Below, in pieces: positions 4,412 through 61,811 of a stretch of 64,000 nt of DNA. The stretch is from Craspedostauros australis (taxonomy: Eukaryota > Bacillariophyta > Bacillariophyceae > Mastogloiales > Achnanthaceae): the NCBI GenBank assembly GCA_026770025.1, contig JAMXDE010000007.1, positions 1,674,001 to 1,738,000 on the forward strand. Reading direction: 5' to 3'. The translations under genes and the position numbers were made by a program. Position 1 is the first letter of the stretch. The number at the start of each line of letters is the position of its first letter. The notes beneath the pieces were generated by a model that was not told the DNA's origin, did no database searches, and saw only the letters and a list, made by a program, of their open reading frames with translations.

Positions 4412-5407
4412 TGAAACACAATGTACAACCAACTCTGCGACACTACCACAAGTATGCACGGATACATCCGATCAATGTTGGTGTCTGTGTGGACGCAAAC
4501 ATTGTTTTGTGAAACACCTTCTGTGCTCGTGCAATATTTGTGTGCGAAGAACCACGGCGCTTTGCTCTCATGGGCCAGAAAGGAGAATTGTTGTGGGGAT
4601 GGAGAGTTTTCCCCTTCCACTACCCGAAATGGAATCTCAATTGCCCATCTTCGACCCTACTATATTCGACAACGACATTCGCGGCTGCGACTTGTTTACT
4701 TCACAGTGGCCCAAGCGTTATTATAACACTCGTGTCACATCACTCCGTCACGACACAAAACCATTGGAACCAAATCACATCTTCAATCCATGCAATCACG
4801 TGGCGCCAGTGGTTGCCAAGGGTTGGTGACAGATGGCTTCTGCCACACAAGTGTCAATGTGCCTCACTTGAATGATTGATACTACAAATACGTACTTCAA
4901 GAAAGCATCACAAGCATCCAAAGCCTCGGCGTTGCCAAGTCTTCCACATGCGTTGCCTCCTTTGGGATGGCTGATCATTCACTCACCTTGCGTTTGGCGC
5001 CACCCTGTTGACACAAACATCACAGAAGAGAGGGAACAGCTCGTCTTCTGCAGCCTCGTCATCCTCCGCTTCTACCGTCATTGTCATCTGCAGCCATACC
5101 ACACTCTGCAGTGGGTTTCACTTTCATCACAAGCAAACGTCAACTCCTCCTCCATCTGCGGCAGAACACCATCACACCAACACCTCCATCTTGTCTCTGC
5201 GCTGCCAAAGAATCACACAGCAGCATCGTCGCCCTGTCCTGCAGTGTCCTGTCCATCCGCAAAGTGTGCATCGCACAACAGACACCAAGAGAGGAGGCAA
5301 CGAGGAGCCAACGAGAGGACTCATCGATCCTCGCCAGCCAAAGTCAAACGCAACAGCAAACGATCCAACACGTATCGAGCAACAGCGTCGTCCCAACTCT
5401 CCCATCA

Positions 5408-8400
5408 ATGGCGGGCATGGAGTCGTCGTGTGGCGCGGGCGCTGTCGCAGCAAGCCGTGCTGCCACGCCCCATTGCGATGCAAAGCAATCACCTGCTTCG
5501 GCGCAGCATGACGCAGCATCGTCTGGATTGGAGTCGCCCACCAAACCAGCTGCCGTTGCAGAACATGGTGGCAGCGGTGTTGGCCAGAGTTGTAGTACCG
5601 TCAACAAGGCCACGTCAGGAAGCAACGGCAACAACAACAACAACGAGAATCACTGCGAGAATACGAGAACCAGCAAAAACGAACGCATCCAAAATCACGA
5701 ACAGCAACGACAGGCACAACAACAACAACCAGAACAAGCACAAGAACAGGAGCAACAGGAGAAAGACGACGCGAACAGGGCATACAGAAATCCAATCGAT
5801 GCAACAGCCGATCGGAGGGACAATGCGACCACAGAACCACCGATTCCTCCAGCCACGCAGATGAAGCCAAGCCCCCAAGAGCGACGCCAATCACTCACCA
5901 AGGTACGAGCGCATGGTGGCGTCACGAATAGGAGTATCTCAGCCGTTAGCACCAGCACGGTCAATAGCAATAGCAATAACGACAGCGACGACAGCGGCAA
6001 CGACTGGCTGCCTCGCATGACCTTGCTGGGCGGGCTGCTCAACCTGGATGGCGCCACCGATGAATTGGAAAGCGTCGTCGGCGACTTCCTGCGGACGGGA
6101 TGCCTCGTCGGCATTATCGTGTGGATCATCCTCGTGGCCGCCGCGCTCCTCCTGGCACCCGCGGAATCCTTCGAAAGGCTCGAGGGGATGGAATTGCGCG
6201 CCAACCACACCGTCCTGGCGCTGCTTCTCTCCGTCAATGGCGTCCACTTCATGCGGCTCATCGTCCGAGACAACGGCACCGCCTTCGTACGGACGGGGGT
6301 ACTGCTGGGTGTCATCACCGTCGAGGGCATCGCCATGGTGTCCGTCTCTCTCCTCGCCTTCTTTCCAACGCCCGTCGTCATCGACCCCGTCACGGGCATG
6401 AGATGCCATCTCGTCCGCTGGGCGGAATGGACCGTGCTGGCCTTCCTCATGACCTTCATGACGGAAAGCATAGACCTTCCCCTGCAGGGTGGTGACACAT
6501 CCACCGCCTGGTTGCACGGCATCGCTATCGGTGCCAGCACGATCGTCGGTGGCCTATTCCCCCTGTGCCAAACGCTGCGTCAGTGGTTGATCTTGTGCAC
6601 GATATCCTGCGCCCTCTTCTCATCCATCTACATTCGCGTCTACCAACGCATGCAGAGACTCAAGACCATGCCGCGCGGCGGGACGGTCCAGGCGAAGGAG
6701 GACTACGAACGTGCCGAGTACAGTCTCAGAATCATCTCGGTGTGCTGCATATCATGGACGGGTCTCGTCCTGGCCTTCTTCTTCTGCTGTCTGGCGCCGC
6801 ATTTTGCACCGCCGGGATCCTTCCTTTCCAGCCACGAGCTTATTCTGGTCACGGAGAGCATGTTCGAACTCCTGTCGAAGGCGTGGTACCTGCAGCTCCT
6901 GGTCGAGGTCCACAGCAGGCTCTTCGACAATGCCACCCGCACCGTGCGGAGATTGGAGGAAGTGCGGCGATTGATGTCGGCGATTTGGGAAACCTCGTCG
7001 GACGTCATGGCGCTGTGCTCCTCCAAGGATGATCATATCCTCACGCTGGTCAGCCCATCATTCTTCATGGTCCAGCAGGATCGCGACTCGATACAGACGC
7101 CGGCTAAATTGGCGCACGATGCCGAATCGCAATCCAATGGCGTCGCCGGTGCGACGACGATACTGGAAATCGATCCCAAGGATGGATCGCATCGCACCTT
7201 CGCCATCAATCTGTCGGAGCCGGTCTCGCGACAAACGGCGATGAAGCTCAACCGGTCCAACGCAGATCGCAGATCCGGCACCATTCACAAGGATGATTCC
7301 ACCATCACGAAAAACACCGCGGTACTCTCCGAGCTCATCTGCCGCATCTACGACGGTCACGGCCGGGCCAGCACGCACATCGATCACATGTACAGAATCG
7401 ATTCCAATCAGGAAGAATACAAAATCAGCTGCGAGGCCAAGGTCACCAACCTGCAGCACTCCGCGCATCTCATCGTGCTGCGAGATATATCGGAACGCTT
7501 CCAACGATTCGAAACGGAGAAGAAGCTAATAGGGGAGATCACGGCACGGCGCAAGGATGCCGAGGCCAACCGCTTCACGCGCCACGAAGTCAAGAATGGG
7601 ATCTTGGCTGCCATCGGGTTGTTGGACTCCCTCAAGGATGCATCGGCGAAACGGGATGACAACAGCAGCGGAGGGGGGCCATCGTCGGACGATGCTGCCG
7701 GGGATAGCGACGGCGAGCCCGGAACCGGCGTGTCCGAGTACGACGAATGCCTTGGCGAATTGGACAACACGCTGCGCGATATACTGGACACCATCATGGA
7801 CCATGCAATGAGCCGCGAAGTCATTTACGAGGAGTACAAGGTGCGACGCGAAAAGATCAAGGTGCCACAAGTGCTCACGGCCATCCGACGCCACACCAGC
7901 TGGAACGATTCTCGATTTCCACTGGAGATGGAGCCGTTCCCGTTCCCCGTGATCGGCATGGACCCGCGGTTGCTGCGGTACATCTACCAGAACGCGGTAT
8001 CCAACGCATGCCGGTACGGCGATTCGGACAAAAACATCACGACGTCCATCATGTACGACGAAGGCAAGAAGGAATTTCAGATGCAGGTCATCAACGCGCC
8101 GGGTCCGGGCCATGAGCATCTGCGGGGCATCGATCCGGACGAAGTCAACGCGATGGTCTTCTCGCCCAGCACGCGGTTGCACACCAAATCGGAAGATGAA
8201 GAATTCGTCACAGTGACGGGCTCCAGCGGTGACGGCGCATGGATCATGCAAAAGTGCGCCAAGACGCTGAAGGGAGAATGCAGCATCAAATTCGAGCCAG
8301 CCCGCACGGTCTTCTCCTTCCATTGCCCCGCCAAGTCGTACATCGTAGTGGAGAGGAAGAAGGCCAAGGAAACCCAAACCTTCACGGAGCTGCCTGCCAA

Positions 8401-9244
8401 CACATGGGGTGTTGTCATTGACGATTCTGGCATTCAGCGCAAGTTGATGGATCGATTCTTGAAGATAGCGGGCATCCCGAAGGACAAGCGCATCATCGTC
8501 GGCAAGGATTCGAAAGAGATATACGGCTTCTGCGACATGGTCGTCGACTTGCTCCGAGATCAGCCGGAGGGCAAGTTCTTGGTCATCGCCGACGAAAACT
8601 TGGAGGTCGTCGAAGGAGCCGCGATGCACGGCACCGTCTCGGGGTCTCTGTGCATCCAACGCATCCTGGAACGATTGGAGCCGTCGGAGGAATCGCGACT
8701 TCTGGCGCTCGTGCGCAGCGCCAACGATTCCAATTCCGACATTGAAACCTACAACGCGCGTGCGCACGGTTACTTGCACAAGGCACCGATCGACAAGCAC
8801 GGTGTCATCGGTGCCATCCGACCATGGTGGTTGAAACGATTTCCGATGCATTCGGACCAACCCGCCGCGGCCAACTTGCTGCGTCAGGACAGCGTCAACA
8901 GCCTGGACAGCGACTTCACGTACGACCCCTTCCACGACATCCACTCCATCCTCGACGTCATCGATGCGCTGTGCAACGTGCACGACGTTATATCGTTGCG
9001 AAAGCGATGGCGCACGATTCAGGATCGATTGCAACGGCTCAAGGGCGATCTGAAGACGGTCATCCCGGAGGCCAAGACGGAGACGAGCGACGCCCTGGAG
9101 GAGGTGCTTCAGGCGATCGACGACCTAAGGTTCGGCGATTTCCCGGAGGATCTGCAAGAGCGATGGGGTGCCGTGAGACGTTCCGCGATCAAGATCATGG
9201 ACGCGGAGCATCGTAAGCAACAGAACTTGGTCAGTGGGAGCTAA
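5408..9244 (+). CDS. Candidate enzymorhodopsin: 8-TM microbial-rhodopsin-like hybrid histidine kinase
   Basis: Intronless, 1278 residues; the first in-frame ATG (MAGMES) is used because the open frame upstream has none. Residues 1-220 are disordered. Eight hydrophobic helices follow at about 231-250, 267-287, 297-320, 336-356, 367-387, 393-412, 441-465 and 475-497. Helix 4 has RWAEW (R337, E340), matching RYAEW/RYADW of helix C in microbial rhodopsins, where the acid is the Schiff-base counterion. Helix 8 has ELLSK (E487, S490, K491), matching the D-x-x-S-K retinal-lysine site of helix G. One extra N-terminal helix is the topology known for cyclase- and phosphodiesterase-rhodopsins. Then come a PAS-like region (about 520-715, ending in RDISERFQRFE), a HisKA box RHEVKNGI (H726), a HATPase with N box NAVSNA (N862, N866) but a weak G1 box, and a receiver domain with D1005/D1006, D1062, S1104 and K1125. 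A helical tail follows. Kinase/receiver architecture is clear; retinal binding is inferred from motifs. Likely a membrane light or chemical sensor. Confidence 0.8.
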   Translation: MAGMESSCGAGAVAASRAATPHCDAKQSPASAQHDAASSGLESPTKPAAVAEHGGSGVGQSCSTVNKATSGSNGNNNNNENHCENTRTSKNERIQNHEQQRQAQQQQPEQAQEQEQQEKDDANRAYRNPIDATADRRDNATTEPPIPPATQMKPSPQERRQSLTKVRAHGGVTNRSISAVSTSTVNSNSNNDSDDSGNDWLPRMTLLGGLLNLDGATDELESVVGDFLRTGCLVGIIVWIILVAAALLLAPAESFERLEGMELRANHTVLALLLSVNGVHFMRLIVRDNGTAFVRTGVLLGVITVEGIAMVSVSLLAFFPTPVVIDPVTGMRCHLVRWAEWTVLAFLMTFMTESIDLPLQGGDTSTAWLHGIAIGASTIVGGLFPLCQTLRQWLILCTISCALFSSIYIRVYQRMQRLKTMPRGGTVQAKEDYERAEYSLRIISVCCISWTGLVLAFFFCCLAPHFAPPGSFLSSHELILVTESMFELLSKAWYLQLLVEVHSRLFDNATRTVRRLEEVRRLMSAIWETSSDVMALCSSKDDHILTLVSPSFFMVQQDRDSIQTPAKLAHDAESQSNGVAGATTILEIDPKDGSHRTFAINLSEPVSRQTAMKLNRSNADRRSGTIHKDDSTITKNTAVLSELICRIYDGHGRASTHIDHMYRIDSNQEEYKISCEAKVTNLQHSAHLIVLRDISERFQRFETEKKLIGEITARRKDAEANRFTRHEVKNGILAAIGLLDSLKDASAKRDDNSSGGGPSSDDAAGDSDGEPGTGVSEYDECLGELDNTLRDILDTIMDHAMSREVIYEEYKVRREKIKVPQVLTAIRRHTSWNDSRFPLEMEPFPFPVIGMDPRLLRYIYQNAVSNACRYGDSDKNITTSIMYDEGKKEFQMQVINAPGPGHEHLRGIDPDEVNAMVFSPSTRLHTKSEDEEFVTVTGSSGDGAWIMQKCAKTLKGECSIKFEPARTVFSFHCPAKSYIVVERKKAKETQTFTELPANTWGVVIDDSGIQRKLMDRFLKIAGIPKDKRIIVGKDSKEIYGFCDMVVDLLRDQPEGKFLVIADENLEVVEGAAMHGTVSGSLCIQRILERLEPSEESRLLALVRSANDSNSDIETYNARAHGYLHKAPIDKHGVIGAIRPWWLKRFPMHSDQPAAANLLRQDSVNSLDSDFTYDPFHDIHSILDVIDALCNVHDVISLRKRWRTIQDRLQRLKGDLKTVIPEAKTETSDALEEVLQAIDDLRFGDFPEDLQERWGAVRRSAIKIMDAEHRKQQNLVSGS

Positions 9245-28088: not shown

Positions 28089-31000
28089 CCCTTCCTGTGT
28101 GCATTCGGTCATTCGAATGTTCTCGATGTGTCAAGGTACGACTTCTCATGTTCACGTTGCAAGTCGGCCTTGATGTTCTTGGTGAATCCGTCGCTTGTGT
28201 TCTGCTCGGATTTGACAAAAATGATTTCGATGGTTTTGTTGATTACCATGTTCCTCACGTAGTGATGGCGTACGTCGATGTGCCGCGATCGTTGGGATGT
28301 TGATGGGTTCTTGGCGATGAAGATCGCCCCGATGTTGTCCACGCGGACCTTGATCGGTGTCTTCACTGGGACGCCCACACTTTCGAGTAGCTGCATGACG
28401 AAGAAGATCTCCTTTGCCGCTTCGGAAAGGGCAACGTATTCTGCTTCGGATGAGCTGAGTGTGACGGCCTTCTGTGCCTTGGATCGTCAAAGGATTGGCA
28501 CCTTGCACAGGTATAGGATGAACCTTCCTATTCTGATTCTCGTGTTCTTGTCTCCTGCATATTCGCTATCGCAGAAGAGCTCCATGTCCCAGCCGTCGTC
28601 GTCTGGACGCGCTGGATGGATCTTCAATCCATAGTCCTTTGTATCGATCACATACTTGATGATTCGATACATCTCCTTCATTGCGGCCTTGGTGGGCCCA
28701 ATCAATACCTTGGAGAGTTCCCTCACAGGGTTCGCGATATCTGGTCGCGAGTGTTTGATGAGGAAGAGTAGCATACCGACGCCTTGGCGATATTTGGCAT
28801 GTTCTTCCGGTCCGACCTTCTGCAGTCCGTTATCTTCGGATGGTCGTACGATGATTTGACCCGGGGTTCCCGGTGTCCCATAGCGTTGCATCTTCTCAAC
28901 CTTGGTTCCGAACTCTTCGATGAGGTGTCGGATGAGATGTGGCTGACGCAATGTCGCTCTAGCCTTGTCATGGTTCAGTTCAATGTTGCAGCTGAGGTAG
29001 TCTCCGAGTCCACGCTCGATTGTCACCTTGAACTTGCTGCCTTGGATATCCTTCAGGAAGGTCTCCAGTGCCTTGGAGTCTCCGCAACAGAAGCAATCGT
29101 CCACGTAGATGGCCACAATCATGCTTCCTTCGTTCGTCTTCCTGTAGAACAGGCACGGGTCTGCTGCGCTCTGTTCGAAGTTGATATTCTTGAGGGTCGA
29201 TACCAACATCTTGAACCATTGCCTGGCGCTCTGTACAAGTCCGTAGATTGGCTTGTGTAGGGTCAGGGCTTCGTCTGGTTGATGATCCATCCCGTTGGGA
29301 CAGTTCATGTAGATCTCCTCGTCGAGGTCTCCATGTAGGAATGCCGTTACGACATCGACGAGTGCGCAGTCCATCTTCTTGATTAGCATGATCACCATCA
29401 TGACCCGATAGGTCACGTCATGGATGACGGGTGAGTAATGCTCTTGGAAGTCTACTCCTGCAACTTGTGAATAGCCACATGCAACGAGCCGCGCTCGATG
29501 TGTGCCGTCACGCTTCAGCTTGAAGACCCATTTGCACTTGCAGCATCTGCGGCCGCGTGGGATGGCGTCTCGTCTGATCTTGCTATACACCTTGCGTGTA
29601 TCCATGGAGTCGAACTCTTTCTTGATGGCTGCTCGATATCCCTTTCGATGGATAGGATCTGGGTGATTGAAGGCTCCGTCGAACGTTGTAGGTTCGATGT
29701 GCTTCTCTGGTTCCTTGTTCTCGTCCTGCATCGACAGTCCGATGTCGATCGCTGGTGATTCGATGATGATTGCATTCATTCCGTACAGTCCTGTTGTGCT
29801 GTGATGAGTGATCTCGATCTCTTCATCTTCGTCTTCGATTTCCTCATCATCTGTAGTTTCGTTGTTGGAGTCGTCGATCATCTCGTCGCTGAGTTCGTCA
29901 CTCGCCTCATTGGATGATGAATCGCTCTCATAGCCTTCTTCCTTTCGACCTTGTTCGTTGAAGTCTGCGAGCTCGCGCAGAGCTCTGGGAATACTCTTCC
30001 CTGCAGTTGACTTGGGATTAGCTTCTCCCTTCCTGCCTCGTGCTTCGTGACGTCGGATCCTCTCCTTTCTAGCTATGTCACGCTTGCTTGGTTTGCTTGG
30101 TGGAGATCTGGATGGTGTGTCATGTGTAGACCTCGCTGGTGTATTCGGAGGAGTAACATCTGTCTCGTCATCGGCTTCGTCGCCGGAGGGTAGGATTTCG
30201 TCATCCTCATGATTGGATTCGCTCCGATCTTCCTCGTCATTCTGGATTAGTTGAGTTACTGCTCCGTCGTCCTCATTATCCTCATCATCGCTGTCTGATA
30301 GGATGTAGTATCTATTGCTGTCAGCGAAAGATACTCTCTTCGCTTCCGATGCTTGACGCGTTGCCGTCCTTGGCGTTGCTCCCTTCCGTCCAATGGTTGT
30401 GAAGCCGTCTGCGTCTGTTGTTCCTGTTTCGTTGGATATGTTCGGTGCTGGTGCCCAGCCACGGAACTGTCCGTACGATTGGTTGAGCCACTTGATATCG
30501 CGTGAGCAGATGAGTGACTTGGTCGATGGTCTGTACATGTTGTAGACCCCTGATGCGTGTTGGTGTGCATATCCGATGAATACCATCTCTTCTCCTCTGT
30601 TCTTGAGTTTAGCGGTAATCCCGCCGTAGGTAGTCTTCACAACACCCACCTCTCCAAACGTGCGGAGCGCGTCCGCATATGGTGGATCGTTGCCAAAGAA
30701 TTGTCGATGTGGTGACTCCTTCTGGTTCTTCGCTACAGTGATGTTGGCGATGGCGGTGGCAGTGCTAGCAGCTGCTGCCCACAGGCCATGCCTATACTCT
30801 TCGTCGAGCTGTGCTCCGTTGAGCATGGAGCGGATCTTGGTGTAGAGGTACGCGAACTTGCGTTCTACTCTGCCATTCTGTTGCGGCATGTTCGATGCCG
30901 TGTATTCGAATTTCACGTTGAGTCCTGCATCGATGAGAATATCCTGCGTGGACTTGTTCTCTCCGCTGTTGTCACCTCGGAAGATGATCTGTTGGTCACC

Positions 31001-34000
31001 AGTCTGTGACTTGATCGTCTGGACGAATCGTTTGATGTATCCTGGTTGATCACTTTTGTTCTTGAGAAAGAAACTCCAGCAGTGATCCGTGCAGTTGTCC
31101 ACGATCAGGGTCCAGTAGCGTTTATCTCCGAAGCTTATGTGTTTAGTGTAACTAATGTCAATGAAGAGCCGTTCGCCACGGCGAGTTGCTCTCGGAATGG
31201 TTGCCTTCGGAATATTCTTCACTCTTGCGTTCGCGACCGCGCAGTCACGACACACCGGCATCTCGCCGATGATTTTCCATCCGTACTGAGCGGCCGTCCG
31301 CTTTATGGTCTCGAGTGGCGCGTGGCCAAGCATTCGGTGTAGGTTCACCGCGCTGATCTCCTTGGATGGATTCTTGATGATGGCTGTGCAAGCCTTGTCG
31401 TCGTCTGTCGGCATGATGGGATGCATCTGCACTCCTGTGATGAATCCGTTGGATGTGGGGAAGACTCGGTCGAACACGATCTTCATTCCGGATCCGTTGA
31501 TGATGTCCATCAGAATGCCATTGTTACCAAGCTGGTAACCGTTGTACAGAGCCTTGTTCGTGGAGAAAAGGTTCACCGCCATTTTCGGTGTGTACTTCAC
31601 GTCATCGAGCCGGATGATGTGGCCAGTGTTGTCTCGCTGCTTGACCTTCAAGCGAATGGATCCCATCTTGGGAGAATCCAGCTTCGTGCTGTCTCCCACT
31701 TGGACGAAGGATTTGATGTGCCGCACGTTGAAGAGAGCGGCGTCCGAGTTGACAATGTGACACGAAGCTCCGCTGTCGGCGAGCCAGGTGTCCTTGTTGA
31801 CCTTGTCCTTGTACTTGGTGCTCAGCTCGTGGAGCTGCTCCACGGCTGCCGCAGCTATCTCGTCGTTGAAGCTGCCGTCGTCGTCGTCTTCGTGGACTCC
31901 ATCTTCGTTGTATGGATGATGATGGTCTCCGTCATCCATGTCGTCGGGTAGTTGCGCGTAGTCCGATGGAATGGTGCTGTTTCGATGTGATCCTGTAACA
32001 GGATCGTATGGGTGGACGCGTGGTCGTTCGCGTAAGAGTACGCGCATACATCCTCCAAGGATGTAATGAAGATCTGTCTCTGGGATCGTCTCTGTCTCGG
32101 CTGCTTCCAGTATGCGATTGATCACAACCGAATTGGCGAGAATCTCTTCGATCGATCTGAAGTTCTCGGATAGGATCGATCCCATCATGTTCACCCATAT
32201 TGGTCTCAGCACTCCTTGTGCGACTCCTGGGAACAGGCTCACTCCTGCTTCCATCACTGCATCGAAGATGAGTTGCTTCTGGATCACCAATGCTGTTTCT
32301 GTTGCATATGGGACGGTGTCATGACGATGGAGGTAATTGGACCTGTTGGGATCCTCGATTGGTGGGAAGTCAATATTCCCTGGGTAGACGACACGCTCGT
32401 TTGGATTGAAGCTGTCGTCTGGATGATTGCCGTTCTCGGATTCGTCGCTGTCATCCTCGTCGAAGATGCCCGATCTGTTGTTCCCCGCCGCTGGGGGAGG
32501 AGGCGCCGCGCCACGGTCCGCCTCATCGTCTTCATCTGCGCCGTCCTCGTCGGCGTCGTCGTCGTCATCGCTCATGGCCTCTTCGATGTCGCTATCGTTG
32601 GCCTTGTCGTCCATCTCAGCTTCGTCGCCGTATGAACCGATCAGGTCGTGCGCGTTGAAGCAGCATTCGTAGCTCACTTCGCGTCTTGGGTCCACCTCGT
32701 GGATGATTGGCTCCTCGCTGAGCCACTCCGGGATGATCTCATCATCCTGCACTTCGTCGTCACTCCCGACGTATTCGAAGTTATCGAAGAAGGAGTCTTC
32801 GATGTAGTCGTCGGACACCAACATGCAGAGCGGCATGTCCTTTGCTGAGAGTACCATCTCGTGCCCGCTCTTGTCGTGTCCTTCCGTAGCCGCGTTGGCT
32901 TGTTCGTTGTTCTTTTTGCTTTCGTTGAACTTCTTCTTTCGGCACTCCGCCTCACGATGTCCGAAGATGCCGCAGTAGTTGCACTTGCCCTTGAAGCCAC
33001 TTCCCTTGTTGCGCTTTCCGTTCATTTTGTTGTTGTTGTTGTTGTTGTTTTTCTTGTTGTTCGATTTCTTGCGTTCTGGGCAATCGGCGGATCTATGGCC
33101 ATACACGCCACAGTTGTGACAAGTACCCTTGAAGTTACCAGTGCTTGTGAAGCCGGTGTCGTTGTTCTTCGTGTTACTATCTTGGAAGTCGTCGACGTAT
33201 GCTTTGCCTCCTCTGTGCGTGGCGTATGCAGTGCAGAGTACTCCTCTGATCGTGTTGATGGTAACCAGTTCTGGATTGAACGTGAGTTGGTGTTGGAAGT
33301 TCACGACGTGGGTTTTGTATTCCACGCTCACTGTGCTGAGAATCTGCATGATCATTTCCTCGTCCGTGATCTCATACTTGACATCGTGGAGACGCGATCG
33401 TAGACTCTCGAGTTGCGTGATGTAGATGTCGGGGTCCGTGTCTCTCTTCATCTTTTCGTTGTTGAATTGGCGCTTGAGTTTGATCTTCGTCGCCGCGTCG
33501 GATGGTCGGAACTTCTCCGCGAGAACGTTCCACGCTCCGTGTGCGTCTCCTTCGGGGTAGTCGTTGGAGATGCATTGGTTGATGTACTGGATGGCCTGCT
33601 TACCTTTTCCTTTCTCTGCATCCATCATGAGGATCAGATCGCTGAAGCAGTCGCATCCCAGCTCGTAGATCTCCTCCATCGCTTCCTTGTCTTCATCGGC
33701 GGCTGCCGCGATCTCGCTCACTGTTGGCACCTTGGTCTTGCCCAACATCACGTCTCTCGTCTTCTGTGCACGAGCGTATGCCTTTGCTTGGGACTCCCAT
33801 GCGCTGTAGTCTTCCTGTTCACCGCTGAACATTGGCGCCTTGATGCGTCGCTTGTTCATGTTGGCTGATGTCGCCATGTTGGTTCGTTGTTTTGTCGTTG
33901 GTGCGCTCGCGCCCTTGATTTCCGTCGGTTTCTGTGTTGCCGATTCTTCGATTTTTGCTTGTTGTCTCGCGAGGATTGATTTGCTCACAAATTCTCCTCC

Positions 34001-34364
34001 TGGTGGTGTCTCACTTTTCCCACCCTGTTTGGCTGTGCGAATGCTCTTCGTCACACCAGTCTCCTCTTGCTTGACCGTCTTGAGAATCCTCTTCTCCTTA
34101 CGATGTAGTCTTGCAGACCGTTCTTCTTCGGTCTCGTCGATTGCGCTTGCGTCTGCGCCTGATAGGACAGTAGCCGCGGCTGCTTCCTTTTCTTGTCGTG
34201 GTGGAGTCTCACTTGCACCTTCTTCTCTCTTGATAGCCGGATTGGACAGAGGGATCTCTCTCAATTCCTCTTCCTCGCTCATTCAGCCTGCTGCTCTTGA
34301 ATGATGTTCGTCTTCCTCGCACGATACGATTCGCGGGCTCGCCCTGATCTATCGTTTATAAACG

Positions 34365-38451: not shown

Positions 38452-39639
38452 TTACAGTTGTTCATTCTCTTGCTCGATTTGTTGTAAGTGTTGTTGTAGT
38501 TGTGGGTTGCGGTGACTGGAACGCTTCATGATCAATCTCTTGATTTCGGGGAGATGTCTTGCACTCATCAAATCGAGGGGTGTTTCGTTGCGATTGTTTT
38601 GGATGTCGATGTCAGCCTTGGCTGATTCGATGAGATACTCGATACACTCCAGGTGGCCATACATGCCTGCATCATGAAGGGGTGTGGAACCAAAGCTGTT
38701 TTGGCAGTTGATGTTCACCTCGCATGATTCAATGAGGTACTTCACACACTCCAGGTGGTTGTAGTGGCATGCCACATGAAGGGGAGTGGAACCATGGTTG
38801 TCTTTGCAGTTGATGTTCGCCTCGCATGATTCAATGAGGTACTCAATACACTCCAGGTGGCCATTCTCGCAGGCGCAAAGAAGCGGAGTCCAATCAAGAT
38901 TGTCTTTGCAGTTGATGGATGCCCCACATGATTCGATGAGGTACTCAATACACTCCAGCTGGCCGTTGCGGCATGTGGCATGAAGGGGAGTGGAACCATG
39001 GTCGTCTTTGCAGTTGATGTTCGCCCCACATGATTCGATGAGGTACTTCACACACTCCTGCTGGCCGTTGCGGCATGCATCATGAAGGGGAGTGCCACCA
39101 AACTTGTCTTTGCAGTTGATGGATGCCCCACATAATTCGATGAGGTACTTCACACACTCCAGGTGGCCGTCCATGCATGCCACATGAAGGGAAGTGTCAC
39201 CATTGTTGTCTTTGTCGTTGATGTCCGACCCACATGACTCGATGAGGTACTTCACACACTCCAGGTGGCCGTTGGTGCATGCATCATGGAGGGGTGTGAA
39301 ACCAAACTCGTCTTCGCAGTCAATGTTTGCCTTGCATGATTCGATGAGGTACTCGATACACACCAGGTGGCCGTTGCGGCACGCCACATGAAGGGGAGTG
39401 GCATAATATCCGTCTCCCCAGTCAATGTTCGCTCCACATGATTCGATGAGGTACTTCACACACTCCTGTTGGCCGTAGCGGCATGCCTCATGAAGGGGAG
39501 TGGAACCATTCCAGTCTTTAACCTTGTTGACATCAACTCCTTTGTCCTGTGTCTTGTTCTGCTCCTTCCATTTCTTCAACACCGACAAGTCACCTTGCAT
39601 GGCAGCCCAAAGGAGTTGTTGGTTCGTAACATTCGGCAT
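38452..39639 (-). CDS. Ankyrin-repeat protein
   Basis: A single-exon frame of 395 residues from an ATG at 39639 to a TAA at 38452. After a 45-residue N-terminal helix pair (LLWAAMQGDLSVLKKWKEQ) come nine to ten ankyrin repeats of exactly 34 residues, each close to TPLHxACxNGHLECVKYLIESC, that is a 102-bp DNA period. Conserved Cys residues at the helix ends (ESCGANINCKD) are unusual but consistent across repeats. The tail is Gln/Glu-rich (LQQIEQENEQL). Near-identical repeats suggest recent duplication or gene conversion. The frame is intact, but the sequence just past the stop continues a BTB domain, so this may be the surviving N-terminal half of a larger gene. Function unknown; ankyrin stacks bind proteins. 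Confidence 0.8.
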   Translation of the reverse strand: MPNVTNQQLLWAAMQGDLSVLKKWKEQNKTQDKGVDVNKVKDWNGSTPLHEACRYGQQECVKYLIESCGANIDWGDGYYATPLHVACRNGHLVCIEYLIESCKANIDCEDEFGFTPLHDACTNGHLECVKYLIESCGSDINDKDNNGDTSLHVACMDGHLECVKYLIELCGASINCKDKFGGTPLHDACRNGQQECVKYLIESCGANINCKDDHGSTPLHATCRNGQLECIEYLIESCGASINCKDNLDWTPLLCACENGHLECIEYLIESCEANINCKDNHGSTPLHVACHYNHLECVKYLIESCEVNINCQNSFGSTPLHDAGMYGHLECIEYLIESAKADIDIQNNRNETPLDLMSARHLPEIKRLIMKRSSHRNPQLQQHLQQIEQENEQL

Positions 39640-54283: not shown

Positions 54284-57200
54284 CTACGGAAAGCACTGCG
54301 TACAGCACGTGCAGGTGATTTCGTTGCAATCTGCCGTCAGTTCCAGCAGTCCGAGACTGCAGATAGCATTGGACACGCTGCCTGACAGGTTGTTGTTATC
54401 GAAGTTGAATTCCCTCAGGTTCTGCAGACTTGCGATGCTTTGTGGCAGCCCACCTTGCAGAGAGTTGTTGCTCACATCGATTTCTTGCAGACTTCGGGCG
54501 GATCCGAGACTTTCGGGGATGTTGCCGCTGAAGTTGTTGCCGCGCAGCTCCAGGACGGTCAGAGTCTGGTAGGATGAGAGGTTGGGGATGACGCCGTCGA
54601 ACTGATTGTCGCTGACCCGCAATCGCGACAACGTCAACGGATTTCCAATGAAGCCGAGGTTGCCGCTGAAGCGGTTGCGTTCCAACACGACAGTGTCGAT
54701 GGGGGATTGGGCGAAGGCACCGGTTGGGATCTCACCGGAGAGCTCCGTGCCGAAGAGGATGATCTGCTCGAGTGATGTCATGGATGTCGCGAAGGCCTCA
54801 GGGAGGGTTCCGGACACACGATTGTCAACAATGGCAAAGATCTCCAGTTCGTCAATGATCGAAAGCTCCGGTGGCAAGGTGCCGACGAGTCCATTATTCG
54901 ACGCTGTGCCATGCAGTTGCGAGGAGAGAGAGAGAGAGAGAGAGGGAGGGAGAGTCACCATTGATGATGTGAGTTGAATGAGGAATTGCAACGGCGTTGA
55001 TCATTGGGTGTGCAGCAATGGCAACAATATGGGCAAGCGTACGCCATGTGCATGCAAAGATTCATTGTGCACCAACACTCCAGGCGACGATCGTGTCGCG
55101 ATTGTGCACATGCACCGTACTTACAGAATACGACATCGCGGATGCGGCCATCGGCTTCGCAGCGGACTCCAAACCATTGGCAGACGCTGCCCTCAAGCCA
55201 GGGTCCGTTGTCCGGATCCGTGCACGTTGCATCATCGCGAGAGCATTGCGACCAGCTGTCGCCGTTCGTTGAGTAATACAGCACCACCAAGGCGTACCGA
55301 TCCCTGAGCTCCTCGGGCGAGAGGAGCTGGAATTTGAAGGCATCCCGTTCGATCAAGAAATCGGCTGCTTGGAACTGCGGTGTGCTGCGATCATCGAACA
55401 CCGCTTGCCCGGATATGTCGCGTGCAAAGAACTCCACGAATTGCTTCAACTGCGAAGTTGATGGGGCGGAAGATGGCGTATCCGTGGTGGGTGCGATGGT
55501 CGGCATTCCCGTCGGCGGCGGCGGCGGCGGTGGTGGCTTGGTTGGGCGCATAGTTGGTACTTCAGTTGGCAGCGTTACTGATGGAGACTCCGTTGGAACA
55601 TCGAGCGTTCGTACTTGCGTGTCGGGACAGTCACAATCATCCAGCAAGAGGGGTACGACGATGGCAGCAATGGCGAGCAGCGCGAGGATGATGATGCCAG
55701 CCATGATAACTCGGAAGTTCCGCCTGGCACGTGCTTCAAGTCGAGCCTTGGAACCATCGTCCTTGGATCCGAAGTCATCGTTGCCCAACGGAGCCGGCAC
55801 GAATGCGGCGCCTCCGGCTCTATCATCTTCATCGTTGAATCCTTCAAAAACGATCTCTTCTTCGTCAGGATGGTTTTGACTGCGGCGACCAGTACGGCCA
55901 ACATCACCAACCATCGCACCTCCACCACGATTTCGCCGTGGACGTTGCGGTTGATTTGGATCTCTGGAGTCGTGCTGTGGATCTCCATTGTAGAGCACGA
56001 ACGGGTCTGAGTTGTAATCTGCCTCGTAAGTTGTGGGTTTGGGCAGATCGGGTTGACGAGGAATGTGCCGATCATCGACGTAGGTGTCACCACCTCCGTA
56101 GGTTGCCGGGACTGGTCCACGCGGAGTCGTTGCTTCGTACGGATTCTCTTCTTCCTCAAACTTTTCTTCGTTGTGGGGACTATAGTGATCTGGTTCGTGT
56201 TGCTGCTGCAGTTGCTGCTGTTCGTGTTGTTGCTGTTGTTGCTGCTGCTGTTGAGTTTGATATGACGTGCTTGATCCACTCCTCGTTGATCCCGAGACTG
56301 GTTGGGACCTGTCCGTCATGGAATCTGGCTGAATTCCACCGGATGGCCTCGATGAGTCGGCGGCAGACATGGATTCATCTTCGTATCCACCGGAAGAACC
56401 TTCTTCCGGAACATCTTGAACGCCTCCGACGAGACTGCCAGCGACGGCTGCAGCACCGACGGCGGCAGCAGCAGCAACAGCAATGCCGGCCGCGTTGTCA
56501 TCATCATCATCATCTTGCTGATTGGTATCTTCGTCAATGGTGTCACCATCTTCATCAAACTCCGCATGCGCCTTTGGCGCTCCATCCTTGGTGGAGATAT
56601 CATCGGATTCCGAAAAGTACTCTTCTTCTTCCAAGTTACTTTGCACGTCGTCTTCTTCGACAATATCCTCGCTATACTCCGGCGCGCCCGCTGCGTCCGG
56701 ATCCCGACCAATCGAGTTGCCGCTGATGGACCCACCCGGTTCACGTCCACGCTGCGAATGTTCCGACGCCGTGTCGACGATTTCCTCGACGAGATAGCGT
56801 TCCGAGAATGGGATCTCCTGGTAGTCGCTGCCTTCGGAAGCCGAGAATTGACCGATGGATTGCTGCTGCGGCGGCGCCTCGCTGACACGGCTGTGCTGTG
56901 TCTCATCCTGTTCCGTCTCGATGTTCTCCGTCTCGTACTGATCGCTCTCGTACTGTTCCTCGATATCCATGTCTTGCTCTTCGGCATCGGCTTCGAGTTC
57001 GACATCTTCGAGGCCGGGCAAGGAAGTGGCCGTGTTGGCCAGGGATATGTTGCCGGACTTTGGCTTTTCGGGTGCCGGCGAGTCGGTTTCCGCATGTTGC
57101 GATCGCTTCGCGGCTGACAGCGACGGCAGATCGCCATTCGGATCCTGCATGGGCGGCGATGGCGTTGTGCGTGGATCCTGACTGTGCTTGGATCGTGAAT

Positions 57201-59746: not shown

Positions 59747-61811
59747 TTAGAAGCACTGAGTGCAGCAGGTGCATGTCACCTCGGATATGCAATCCGCGGA
59801 CAGGATCTGAATCTCCACGACACCTGTACCACGACGACCGCACAATAGGTCAGTGACAGTGCCCGTGAATTCGTTACCTTGCAGTTGCAACTCGTCTGTT
59901 GTTGTATCATCGTCGTCAGTGTTGTGATTGTTCGTTGTGTTGGTAGCAGTGTTGTTGTTGTTGTTGTTGTTGTTGTTGGACAGGAGGAAAGGTGGAATGA
60001 ATAGTAAATGTGTGAGAATCCATGATGCATATGGCAGCGCAACAAAGCGAGATGCACATGCAGTAGCAACAGGCACAGCACTCACTCAAGGTGGCCAAGG
60101 TATCAAAGACGGTTGGAAATGGCCCGCTGAATCTGTTGTTGGCGAGGTTGATGAATTGTATGATTCGAAAGTTGGCGAATCCGTCCGGAAGGACGCCCGA
60201 GAAATCAGCGCCATCGACGTTCAGTTCATCCAGCGGCAGATCGAAGAGCTCGGCCGGCAAATTGCCCGTGATGCCGGTGCCGCCCAATCGCAATTTCGTC
60301 AGGGTGGGCATGTTGGCGATGGCCGCACCCGAGATGGTGCCGCGGATTTCGGGATTGTTGGATAGATCGAGCCATTCGAGGGAAGGATTGTAGACGCCGC
60401 TGGTGAGATCGCCGCGCAGGTTGTTGTCGGCGAGGTTGATGCGCGCCAGGCTGCTCATCTGGTTCAGCTCGTCGGGAATGACGCCCGTGAGGCTGTTGCC
60501 CTGGAGGCGCAGCTCGGCGACGTTGGCGAATTGTCCAAAGATGACGGGGATGGGTCCGGCGAGCTGGTTGTTCTCCATGAAGATGCGGGTGATGGTGTCC
60601 ACGGAACCAGAAAGGAAGTCAGAAGGGATGCCGTCGATCTGGTTTCCGCTGAGGACGATTTCGCGCATGTTGGTCAACGCGTTGAATCGTGGTGGGAAGG
60701 ATCCAGTGATGCCATTGTCGGCGGCGATGAAGGTACGCAAGAATTCGAGCTGACCGATGTCGTCTGGGATTGGCCCTTGCAGGTTGTTCCCAGTGAGTGC
60801 TCCTGTTGTCGTGACAAGCATGACAAGCATGACGATCATGACGAGTATGGTGCAATTGAAGCAAAACGAAATGAATAGAATAGAATGAAACGAATGAATG
60901 GATGAAAAGATGTGTGAGGTGTGTGGTGATGACAGTTGACGTTCACAAATCATAAAAGAGAACCATGTCTGGACGTCGCAGATCAACTCCCCATACTCGC
61001 AGTGTATGGTAGAGCACGGTTGCTTGATTTCTCCACATCCATGCATTTCCAGAGTGAACTTACCAAAGTTAAGCTCCGCCACTCTGCCATTCTCGCACAG
61101 CACAAAGGCCCAAGTGCAGTGATCGCTCTCCGGGTTCAGCCACCGGCCGTCGTTTGCGCAAGCCGTATCGCCCTGACCACACTGGGTCCAACCATCGCCG
61201 TTGAGGGAGTTGTACAGGACGACCAAGGTGTAGCGGTCCTCCACCGGTGGCACATCCGTCAGCTGGCCGATGAAGATGTCAGTGATCATGAATTCAGCAG
61301 CCCTGTATTGCGGGCTGGACTTGTCAGCGAACGGTTCCGTGCCAGAGACGGGGTAGCCGATGGTGTTGAGGAAGCTGAACAATCGTGCCGTGGTGGGCTC
61401 GAAGGTCGGCGTCTCGGACGGGAGCAGCGTCGGCACTGGCGTGGGAGCGAGCGTTGGTGACGGTGTGGGCGCCACGACCGGCGCGACAGTGTTTGGCACG
61501 ATCGGGGCCGCCACGGGTGCCTTGGACTGCGAAGGCGGGAAGGTGAGCGACCTGAGGTTGACGTCGTTGCAGTCGCAATCGTCGAGGAGCATGGGCACGA
61601 GGATGGCGGCGACCGCGAGCAGAGCGACGATGACCAAGCCGAAGATGATGCAGCGGTGGCGGGCCTTGGCCTTGTCGTCATCGGTGGGGCCGTCCATGTC
61701 ATCGTTCGCCCTGTTGCCATCGTCGGAGGACTGCGCGTCGTTGCGAGAGCCGCTGTCACCGTACCCGGCTGCGGCTCCGTTGGCCTGCTCTTCGTTGTAT
61801 GGTTGCAACAT
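59747..61811 (-). CDS. LRR receptor-like protein, short cytosolic domain, spliced
   Basis: Exons 61064-61811, 60086-60802 and 59747-59895, joined by introns of 261 and 190 bp with GTAAGT and GTGAGT donors (phase 1 both); the product is 537 residues. An acidic N-terminus of 50 residues precedes one membrane helix (about 54-76) ending LVPMLLDDCDC, and a PTPSPTLAPTPVPT stalk. The N-cap domain has LVVLYNSLNGDGWTQC and CTWAFVLCENGRV. Exon 2 holds about nine LRRs (LTGNNLQGPIPDDIG, VAELRLQGNSLTGVIPDEL). Exon 3 restores a final repeat, LNELQLQGNEFTGTV, and the Cys cap CTCCTQCF. Membrane-proximal, N-cap and C-cap motifs and the first intron's position match the neighbouring LRR gene, so they are tandem paralogues. 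The 3' intron has a GTT microsatellite. No kinase domain. The likely role is cell-surface recognition. Confidence 0.85.
59951..59979. repeat. GTT microsatellite in an LRR gene intron
   Basis: About nine GTT units inside the second intron of the smaller LRR gene. Confidence 0.9.

Follow-up and report, generated by a model that had tools for sequence, protein, structure and literature searches.

What does the membrane domain of the large predicted hybrid histidine kinase encoded at 5408-9244 (+) in a 64,000-nucleotide stretch of Craspedostauros australis DNA (contig JAMXDE010000007.1; hereafter the window) sense, and is this domain a microbial rhodopsin? The frame is open throughout, translating into 1278 residues with zero internal stops, which bears out the original prediction of a single intronless protein; the closest in-frame stop upstream is at 5009. 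Its G+C content by codon position (0.57/0.43/0.74) fits that of a coding sequence, with the third position reaching 0.815 in the membrane part. The protein is organized as a low-complexity N-terminus followed by approximately eight predicted transmembrane (TM) helices, a PAS-like linker, a histidine kinase, a receiver-like region, and a helical tail (Table 1). We favor the reading that a membrane-bound hybrid histidine kinase here carries, as its sensor, an enzyme-rhodopsin-type microbial rhodopsin with eight helices and a highly diverged sequence. The sequence comparisons make a rhodopsin fold of the membrane domain likely, and we lean toward a retinal-binding light sensor with the chromophore on K491.

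The two motifs on which the original prediction was built were recovered at residues 337-341 (RWAEW) and 487-491 (ELLSK), with K491 encoded by nucleotides 6878-6880. In Smith-Waterman local alignments, with z-scores derived from block shuffles, the membrane domain reached z 5.4-6.1 with channelrhodopsin-2 (ChR2) and 5.5-6.6 with a fragment of the rhodopsin phosphodiesterase of Salpingoeca rosetta (Rh-PDE) across three runs, with local scores of 113 and 104, respectively, each matched by 0 of 1000 shuffles. When run against membrane decoys (z 6.0 for ChR2 and 6.6 for Rh-PDE), neither score was attained by any of 95 non-redundant decoys, the best of which scored 82 and 81, while known rhodopsins scored 136-258 against ChR2 (15 sequences) and 50-100 against the Rh-PDE fragment (16 sequences). 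These decoys, none of them eukaryotic, were open frames from six-frame translation of mostly haloarchaeal sequence, supplemented in the pairwise runs by a single stretch of E. coli; a 50% identity limit left 95 of 161 segments, and frames that matched a rhodopsin profile (104) were excluded. The reverse control, with the membrane domain aligned to 95 non-rhodopsin references, gave a best z of 2.3, as against 6.1 for ChR2 and 5.5 for Rh-PDE. A phmmer search of 177,635 PDB sequences with the 302-residue membrane domain recovered a single match at E up to 10, namely the rhodopsin domain of Rh-PDE (7cj3; E 0.65), in register across TM0-TM3, with LVRWAEW placed over LMRYAEW. Since a three-sequence rhodopsin profile finds only 194 of these 177,635 sequences at E up to 0.001, a random PDB match would seldom be a rhodopsin. 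When the whole protein was used as the query, Rh-PDE chains ranked second and third among six matches (E 2.9 and 3.9).

The alignments also bear on the candidate Schiff-base residues. In the alignment with ChR2, E340, P422, E487, and K491 fall on E123, P204, D253, and K257, even with RWAEW masked, and in a MAFFT alignment with 12 haloarchaeal rhodopsins R337, W341, W450, and K491 occupy invariant columns (in two MAFFT alignments the haloarchaeal helix A was misplaced onto TM0 or the start of TM2, and only TM2 onward was used for modeling). By alignment, E340 (6425-6427) takes the counterion position of bacteriorhodopsin (BR) Asp85, ChR2 Glu123, and Rh-PDE Glu164, and E487 that of BR Asp212 and ChR2 Asp253; carboxylates are thus found at both rhodopsin positions, one in TM3 behind R-[YW] and the other four residues before the lysine, and both are Glu. 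Glu is an unusual residue for the Asp212 position, with a precedent in KnRh2, a HisK-RR rhodopsin (E221/K225; PMC7693036). K491 is in register with ChR2 Lys257 and BR Lys216, midway along the last helix, which itself derives from low-confidence models, and E483, E487, S490, and K491 would line one face of this helix within 100 degrees. In the Rh-PDE structure, Trp63 of TM0 hydrogen-bonds Ser136 of TM2 (PMC7644710), and both partners of this contact are matched, by W239 and S312 (numbering set from Glu164). M351, which takes the place of BR Asp96, would make proton pumping unlikely. When the membrane domain was block-shuffled 400,000 times, the pattern R[YWF]x[DE]W appeared in the right stretch 386 times, in combination with a TM7 lysine preceded by an acid at -4 in 28 cases, and with the further addition of a TM6 Trp followed by an aromatic at +7 in three; this signature was picked post hoc, with the sequence already known.

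The helix count draws on several kinds of evidence. A hydropathy scan marks hydrophobic stretches at residues 220-258, 267-287, 290-331, 366-413, and 437-473 and by itself falls short of eight helices, with the regions assigned to TM3 and TM7 (335-355 and 477-501) below its threshold and a stricter count giving seven segments; these two helices were placed by their motifs and by two low-confidence predicted models, and we infer the exact number of helices and their sidedness. The first AlphaFold2 model, from the single sequence (mean pLDDT, the predicted local distance difference test, 50), has a TM2-TM3 hairpin, in a region where pLDDT is below 50, and a last helix that breaks at K491. The second, for which rhodopsin rows were supplied over TM2-TM7 (mean 59), has eight helices, with the last one continuous from 475 to 507 and pLDDT values of approximately 55-68 for TM3-TM4, 69-80 for TM5-TM7, and 36-51 for TM0-TM2. 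It also shows a short helix after TM0, at the site of the lateral ECL0 helix of Rh-PDE (PMC7644710); a β-hairpin between TM2 and TM3, as predicted here, is described for BR, ChR2, and Rh-PDE in the same source. In Foldseek searches the best match of the single-sequence model had an E of 0.21, and no microbial rhodopsin was among its 50 matches listed. The second model had BR as its top PDB match (E 0.033; TM-scores of 0.52 for the target and 0.41 for the query), and its 50 matches listed comprised 42 microbial rhodopsins and eight G-protein-coupled receptors, with Rh-PDE not among them and no match reaching E 0.001. As the alignment behind the second model held rhodopsins, we treat this result solely as a check of consistency. 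A search of the viral library gave nothing convincing.

Against the rhodopsin reading stands a series of results, those touching the fold being given here and those touching function further below. The profile search proposed in the original prediction failed to bear it out: the membrane helices match Bac_rhodopsin (PF01036) in Pfam at no E up to 10, although ChR2 (3.5e-64) and even a 114-residue Rh-PDE fragment (6.7e-19) do. A home-made profile of 17 rhodopsins, mostly haloarchaeal, gives the membrane domain 2.2 bits, a score attained in 113 of 2000 shuffles (of which 1955 returned a score and 45 none) and in 3 of the 113 membrane decoys considered (of 130 decoys 124 were scored, and 11 evident rhodopsins above 90 bits were set aside). 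The Pfam null and the nearness of this score to shuffles and decoys mean that the domain is at best a very diverged rhodopsin. No Rh-PDE or other rhodopsin was matched in the PDB when the two halves of the domain were searched separately. Pairwise alignment gave z 2.2 against BR and 0.2 against a proteorhodopsin (PR). In the reverse control, z ranged from -1.2 to 3.6 for the 15 rhodopsin references that remain when ChR2 and Rh-PDE are set apart, so that the likeness is closer to the two eukaryotic rhodopsins tested than to the haloarchaeal ones. Both structural models are of low confidence, and rhodopsin rows went into the better of the two. As to other families, a Pfam match of the helices to VIT1 (0.035) was rejected as partial and under the cut-off, NCBIfam returned nothing for the helices alone, and PHROGs yielded weak matches only, to families of unknown function.

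Masking and splitting the domain further reduce the signal. Once RWAEW is masked, z declines to 2.2 against ChR2 (35 of 1000 shuffles) and 2.95 against Rh-PDE (11 of 1000), and equally masked controls stay higher against ChR2 (BR 4.8, PR 3.5); against Rh-PDE the controls do no better than the membrane domain (BR 1.4, ChR2 0.0, PR -0.6). Masking of RWAEW, ELLSK, and TMPRG together leaves z 0.7. Residues 342-511 alone align with ChR2 off register at z 0.99, as opposed to 4.96 for the equivalent part of BR, and residues 225-336, which exclude RWAEW, give z 0.7 against ChR2. The same residues 225-336 align in register with Rh-PDE at z 3.2 (9 of 1000 shuffles). By these sequence tests, much of the alignment signal is RWAEW itself, and given the outcome of masking and splitting the case for a rhodopsin rests on the order and spacing of the motifs, together with a modest signal from TM0-TM2. 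A different reading, namely that the domain is an unrelated multi-helix sensor of eukaryotic histidine kinases that came to resemble rhodopsins by convergence, chiefly via a chance RWAEW, would account for the lack of a profile match, the concentration of the alignment signal in short motifs, the unmatched halves, and the absence of microbial rhodopsins among the 50 matches listed for the single-sequence model. We consider such convergence unlikely in light of the rarity of the three-part signature among the shuffles, the failure of all 95 decoys to equal the ChR2 or Rh-PDE scores, and the in-register alignment to Rh-PDE that persists outside RWAEW.

C-terminal to the helices, the presence of a catalytic domain is established by HATPase_c, the only Pfam model to exceed its cut-off. 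The corresponding call in the original prediction thus stands, while its PAS, HisKA, and receiver calls are carried by motifs, with no Pfam match to HisKA, PAS, or Response_reg at E up to 10; we accordingly speak of PAS-like and receiver-like regions. NCBIfam placed sensor-kinase models on the kinase core, all under their cut-offs, in addition to low-complexity or marginal matches elsewhere outside the helices. A PDB search with the receiver-like region gave four weak matches, of which only 7kpo (E 1.1, across 31 residues) was to a response regulator, and these were judged unconvincing. The G1 box (8093-8110) reads N896-A-P-G-P-G in place of the usual D-x-G-x-G. As an observation apart, the kinase half of the gene is overlapped on the opposite strand by a 502-residue open frame (7526-9034), probably a by-product of the G+C-rich coding sequence.

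On the side of function, the replacement of the G1-box Asp by Asn may alter ATP binding and renders the kinase activity uncertain. In the membrane domain, position 89 is L344 and position 90 is A345, and the TM6 proline is absent; Ser or Thr occupies position 89 in 43 of 47 modular rhodopsins (PMC7693036). Conservation of K491 also finds no orthologue support in the viral, genome, phage, and plasmid collections searched, none of which is a collection of eukaryotic genomes. No relative of the 1278-residue protein or its parts was confirmed in the viral or genome contig collections, nor of the kinase part in phages, and tblastn against plasmids gave a single weak match across the kinase region, covering 14% of the query. 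Rhodopsin queries likewise retrieved no confirmed relative from viral contigs and phages, and hence supplied no eukaryotic opsins for the comparison panel. A DNA pattern match in a viral contig (L001) was dropped as due to chance, and a second DNA pattern matched no viral contig. The altered G1 box and altered positions 89, 90, and TM6 proline, along with a divergence far beyond that of the control rhodopsins, would suit a rhodopsin-derived fold that has lost light sensing, with K491 a relic and the domain responding to a ligand, the membrane state, or voltage, or only anchoring or dimerizing the kinase. That scenario appears improbable to us: the surviving residues are largely those of the Schiff-base environment (R337, E340, W341, W450, E487, and K491), an odd set to be retained without retinal, and a charged Lys-Glu-Glu face within a membrane helix would be costly without a partner.

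The original prediction of a light-sensing two-component receptor is hence upheld in part: the alignments with their controls, the alignment of the predicted TM0 with that of Rh-PDE, and the placing of E340, E487, and K491 speak for a rhodopsin relationship, whereas the Pfam profile does not and the masking of RWAEW weakens the case. If the domain is indeed a diverged enzyme rhodopsin, we propose that K491 of TM7 would bind retinal as a Schiff base, for which E340 and E487 would serve as the counterion pair. Light would isomerize the retinal and thereby move TM7, which would continue into a charged signaling helix (approximately residues 500-525) and then into the PAS-like linker. The latter would set the activity of the kinase core bearing H726, and the phosphate would then pass to D1062 of the receiver-like region.

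Should K491 bind retinal, enzyme rhodopsins would reach a divergence unseen by the Bac_rhodopsin profile, and their described range may widen; the source organism would then have a candidate photoreceptor open to testing, and the design of light-controlled kinases a new scaffold. Should K491 lack retinal, the rhodopsin fold may have been repurposed for other forms of sensing.

Table 1. Features of the predicted hybrid histidine kinase gene, with window coordinates.
Feature	Coordinates	Strand	Residues	Remarks
Whole open frame	5408..9244	+	1278 aa	predicted hybrid histidine kinase bound to the membrane; sensor domain rhodopsin-like
N-terminal low-complexity region	5408..6031	+	1-208	A/S/N/Q-rich
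TM0	6101..6157	+	232-250	additional helix ahead of TM1; W239 placed on SrRh-PDE Trp63
TM1	6203..6268	+	266-287	from hydropathy
TM2	6293..6361	+	296-318	S312 aligned with Ser136 of SrRh-PDE
TM2-TM3 loop	6374..6406	+	~323-333	predicted β-hairpin, low-confidence part of both models
TM3	6410..6472	+	335-355	RWAEW at 6416-6430; helix from models
TM4 and TM5	6503..6646	+	366-388 and 389-413	from hydropathy
TMPRG motif	6665..6679	+	420-424	after TM5; aligned with ChR2 TVPKG
TM6	6716..6787	+	437-460	W450 at the BR Trp182 / ChR2 Trp223 position
TM7	6836..6910	+	477-501	E483, E487, candidate retinal lysine K491; helix from models
PAS-like linker	6980..7522	+	~525-705	motif only; LRDISER at 691-697, at its end
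Dimerization/phosphoacceptor part	7550..7807	+		H726 (7583-7585) in RHEVKNG; acidic insertion ~745-780
HATPase_c	7961..8332	+	852-975	N-box N862; G2-like box; Pfam 6e-07
Receiver-like region	8408..8812	+		D1005/D1006, D1062, K1125; motif only
C-terminal helical-looking tail	8900..9217	+		weak DUF7032 match (2e-4), under cut-off

Elsewhere in the window lie a Copia-type retroelement, ankyrin and leucine-rich-repeat genes, and frames for a Cef1-like Myb protein and a protein kinase, a set of neighbors that points to a eukaryote. The retroelement frame (28487-34282, -; 1931 aa) is open throughout, with matches to gag, a zinc knuckle, and reverse transcriptase. The ankyrin-repeat protein (395 aa; 38452-39639, -) lies on an array of a 102-bp DNA repeat (8.7 copies, 78% matches), which suggests a fairly recent repeat expansion. 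Two leucine-rich-repeat frames (54284-54991 and 59916-61811, -) lie approximately 5 kb apart.

Among the known systems closest to it is SrRh-PDE (7cj3), with which the protein shares a predicted TM0, R-[YW]-A-E-W in TM3, the TM0-TM2 Trp/Ser pair, the TM7 lysine, and a C-terminal enzyme, at 23% identity in MAFFT over the TM0-TM3 fragment to which the comparison is limited. It differs in having a histidine kinase rather than a phosphodiesterase as its effector, and E487 in place of Asp292. ChR2 is alignable across TM2-TM7, with the counterion, proline, and lysine positions matched as above; unlike the present protein it has no kinase, TM0 is unmatched in the alignment, and a channel function would not be expected here. 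BR and the haloarchaeal rhodopsins retain the R82, W86, W182, and K216 columns in MAFFT, whereas the pairwise similarity to BR is weak (z 2.2) and its Asp85 and Asp212 are both replaced by Glu.

By predicted architecture, the protein resembles the algal histidine kinase rhodopsins (HKRs) and two-component cyclase opsins, viz., HKR1/Cop5, 2c-Cyclop, and Ot-HKR, which combine eight predicted helices with a following histidine kinase and response regulator. In HKRs and two-component cyclase opsins, the opsin, histidine kinase, and response regulator lie in one chain (PMC6284317, PMC12558739). In 2c-Cyclop the kinase directly follows the opsin (PMC6284317), whereas here a PAS-like linker of approximately 180 residues intervenes; in Cr2c-Cyclop1, a characterized relative from algae, the kinase route is inhibited by light (PMC6284317). 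Enzyme rhodopsins are sourced to fungi, green algae, and choanoflagellates in a 2025 review (PMC12558739). The original prediction placed rhodopsin-histidine kinases in green algae, which may be too narrow a range. The rhodopsin name prefixes GtRh and BgRh presumably denote organisms outside this group. GtRh4-10 and BgRh1/2 are tabulated with HisK (PMC7693036). Among the matches listed from the accessible open-licence literature, no report of a diatom or stramenopile rhodopsin histidine kinase was found. Kinases whose H-box and G2 box are similar may be expected in diatom genomes. As a tentative proposal, the protein could represent a family not described so far, in which an eight-helix rhodopsin with a pair of Glu counterions acts via a PAS relay on a histidine kinase, and which has drifted beyond the reach of the standard profile; if this holds, some kinases of the source lineage that carry no annotation beyond that of a membrane protein could in fact be light-regulated two-component receptors. 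The predicted architecture is that of the known histidine kinase rhodopsins. Relative to known HKRs, what is new, as predicted from the sequence, is the PAS-like relay, the absence of a detected cyclase domain, the Glu/Glu pair, and an opsin part so diverged that it escapes the Bac_rhodopsin profile.

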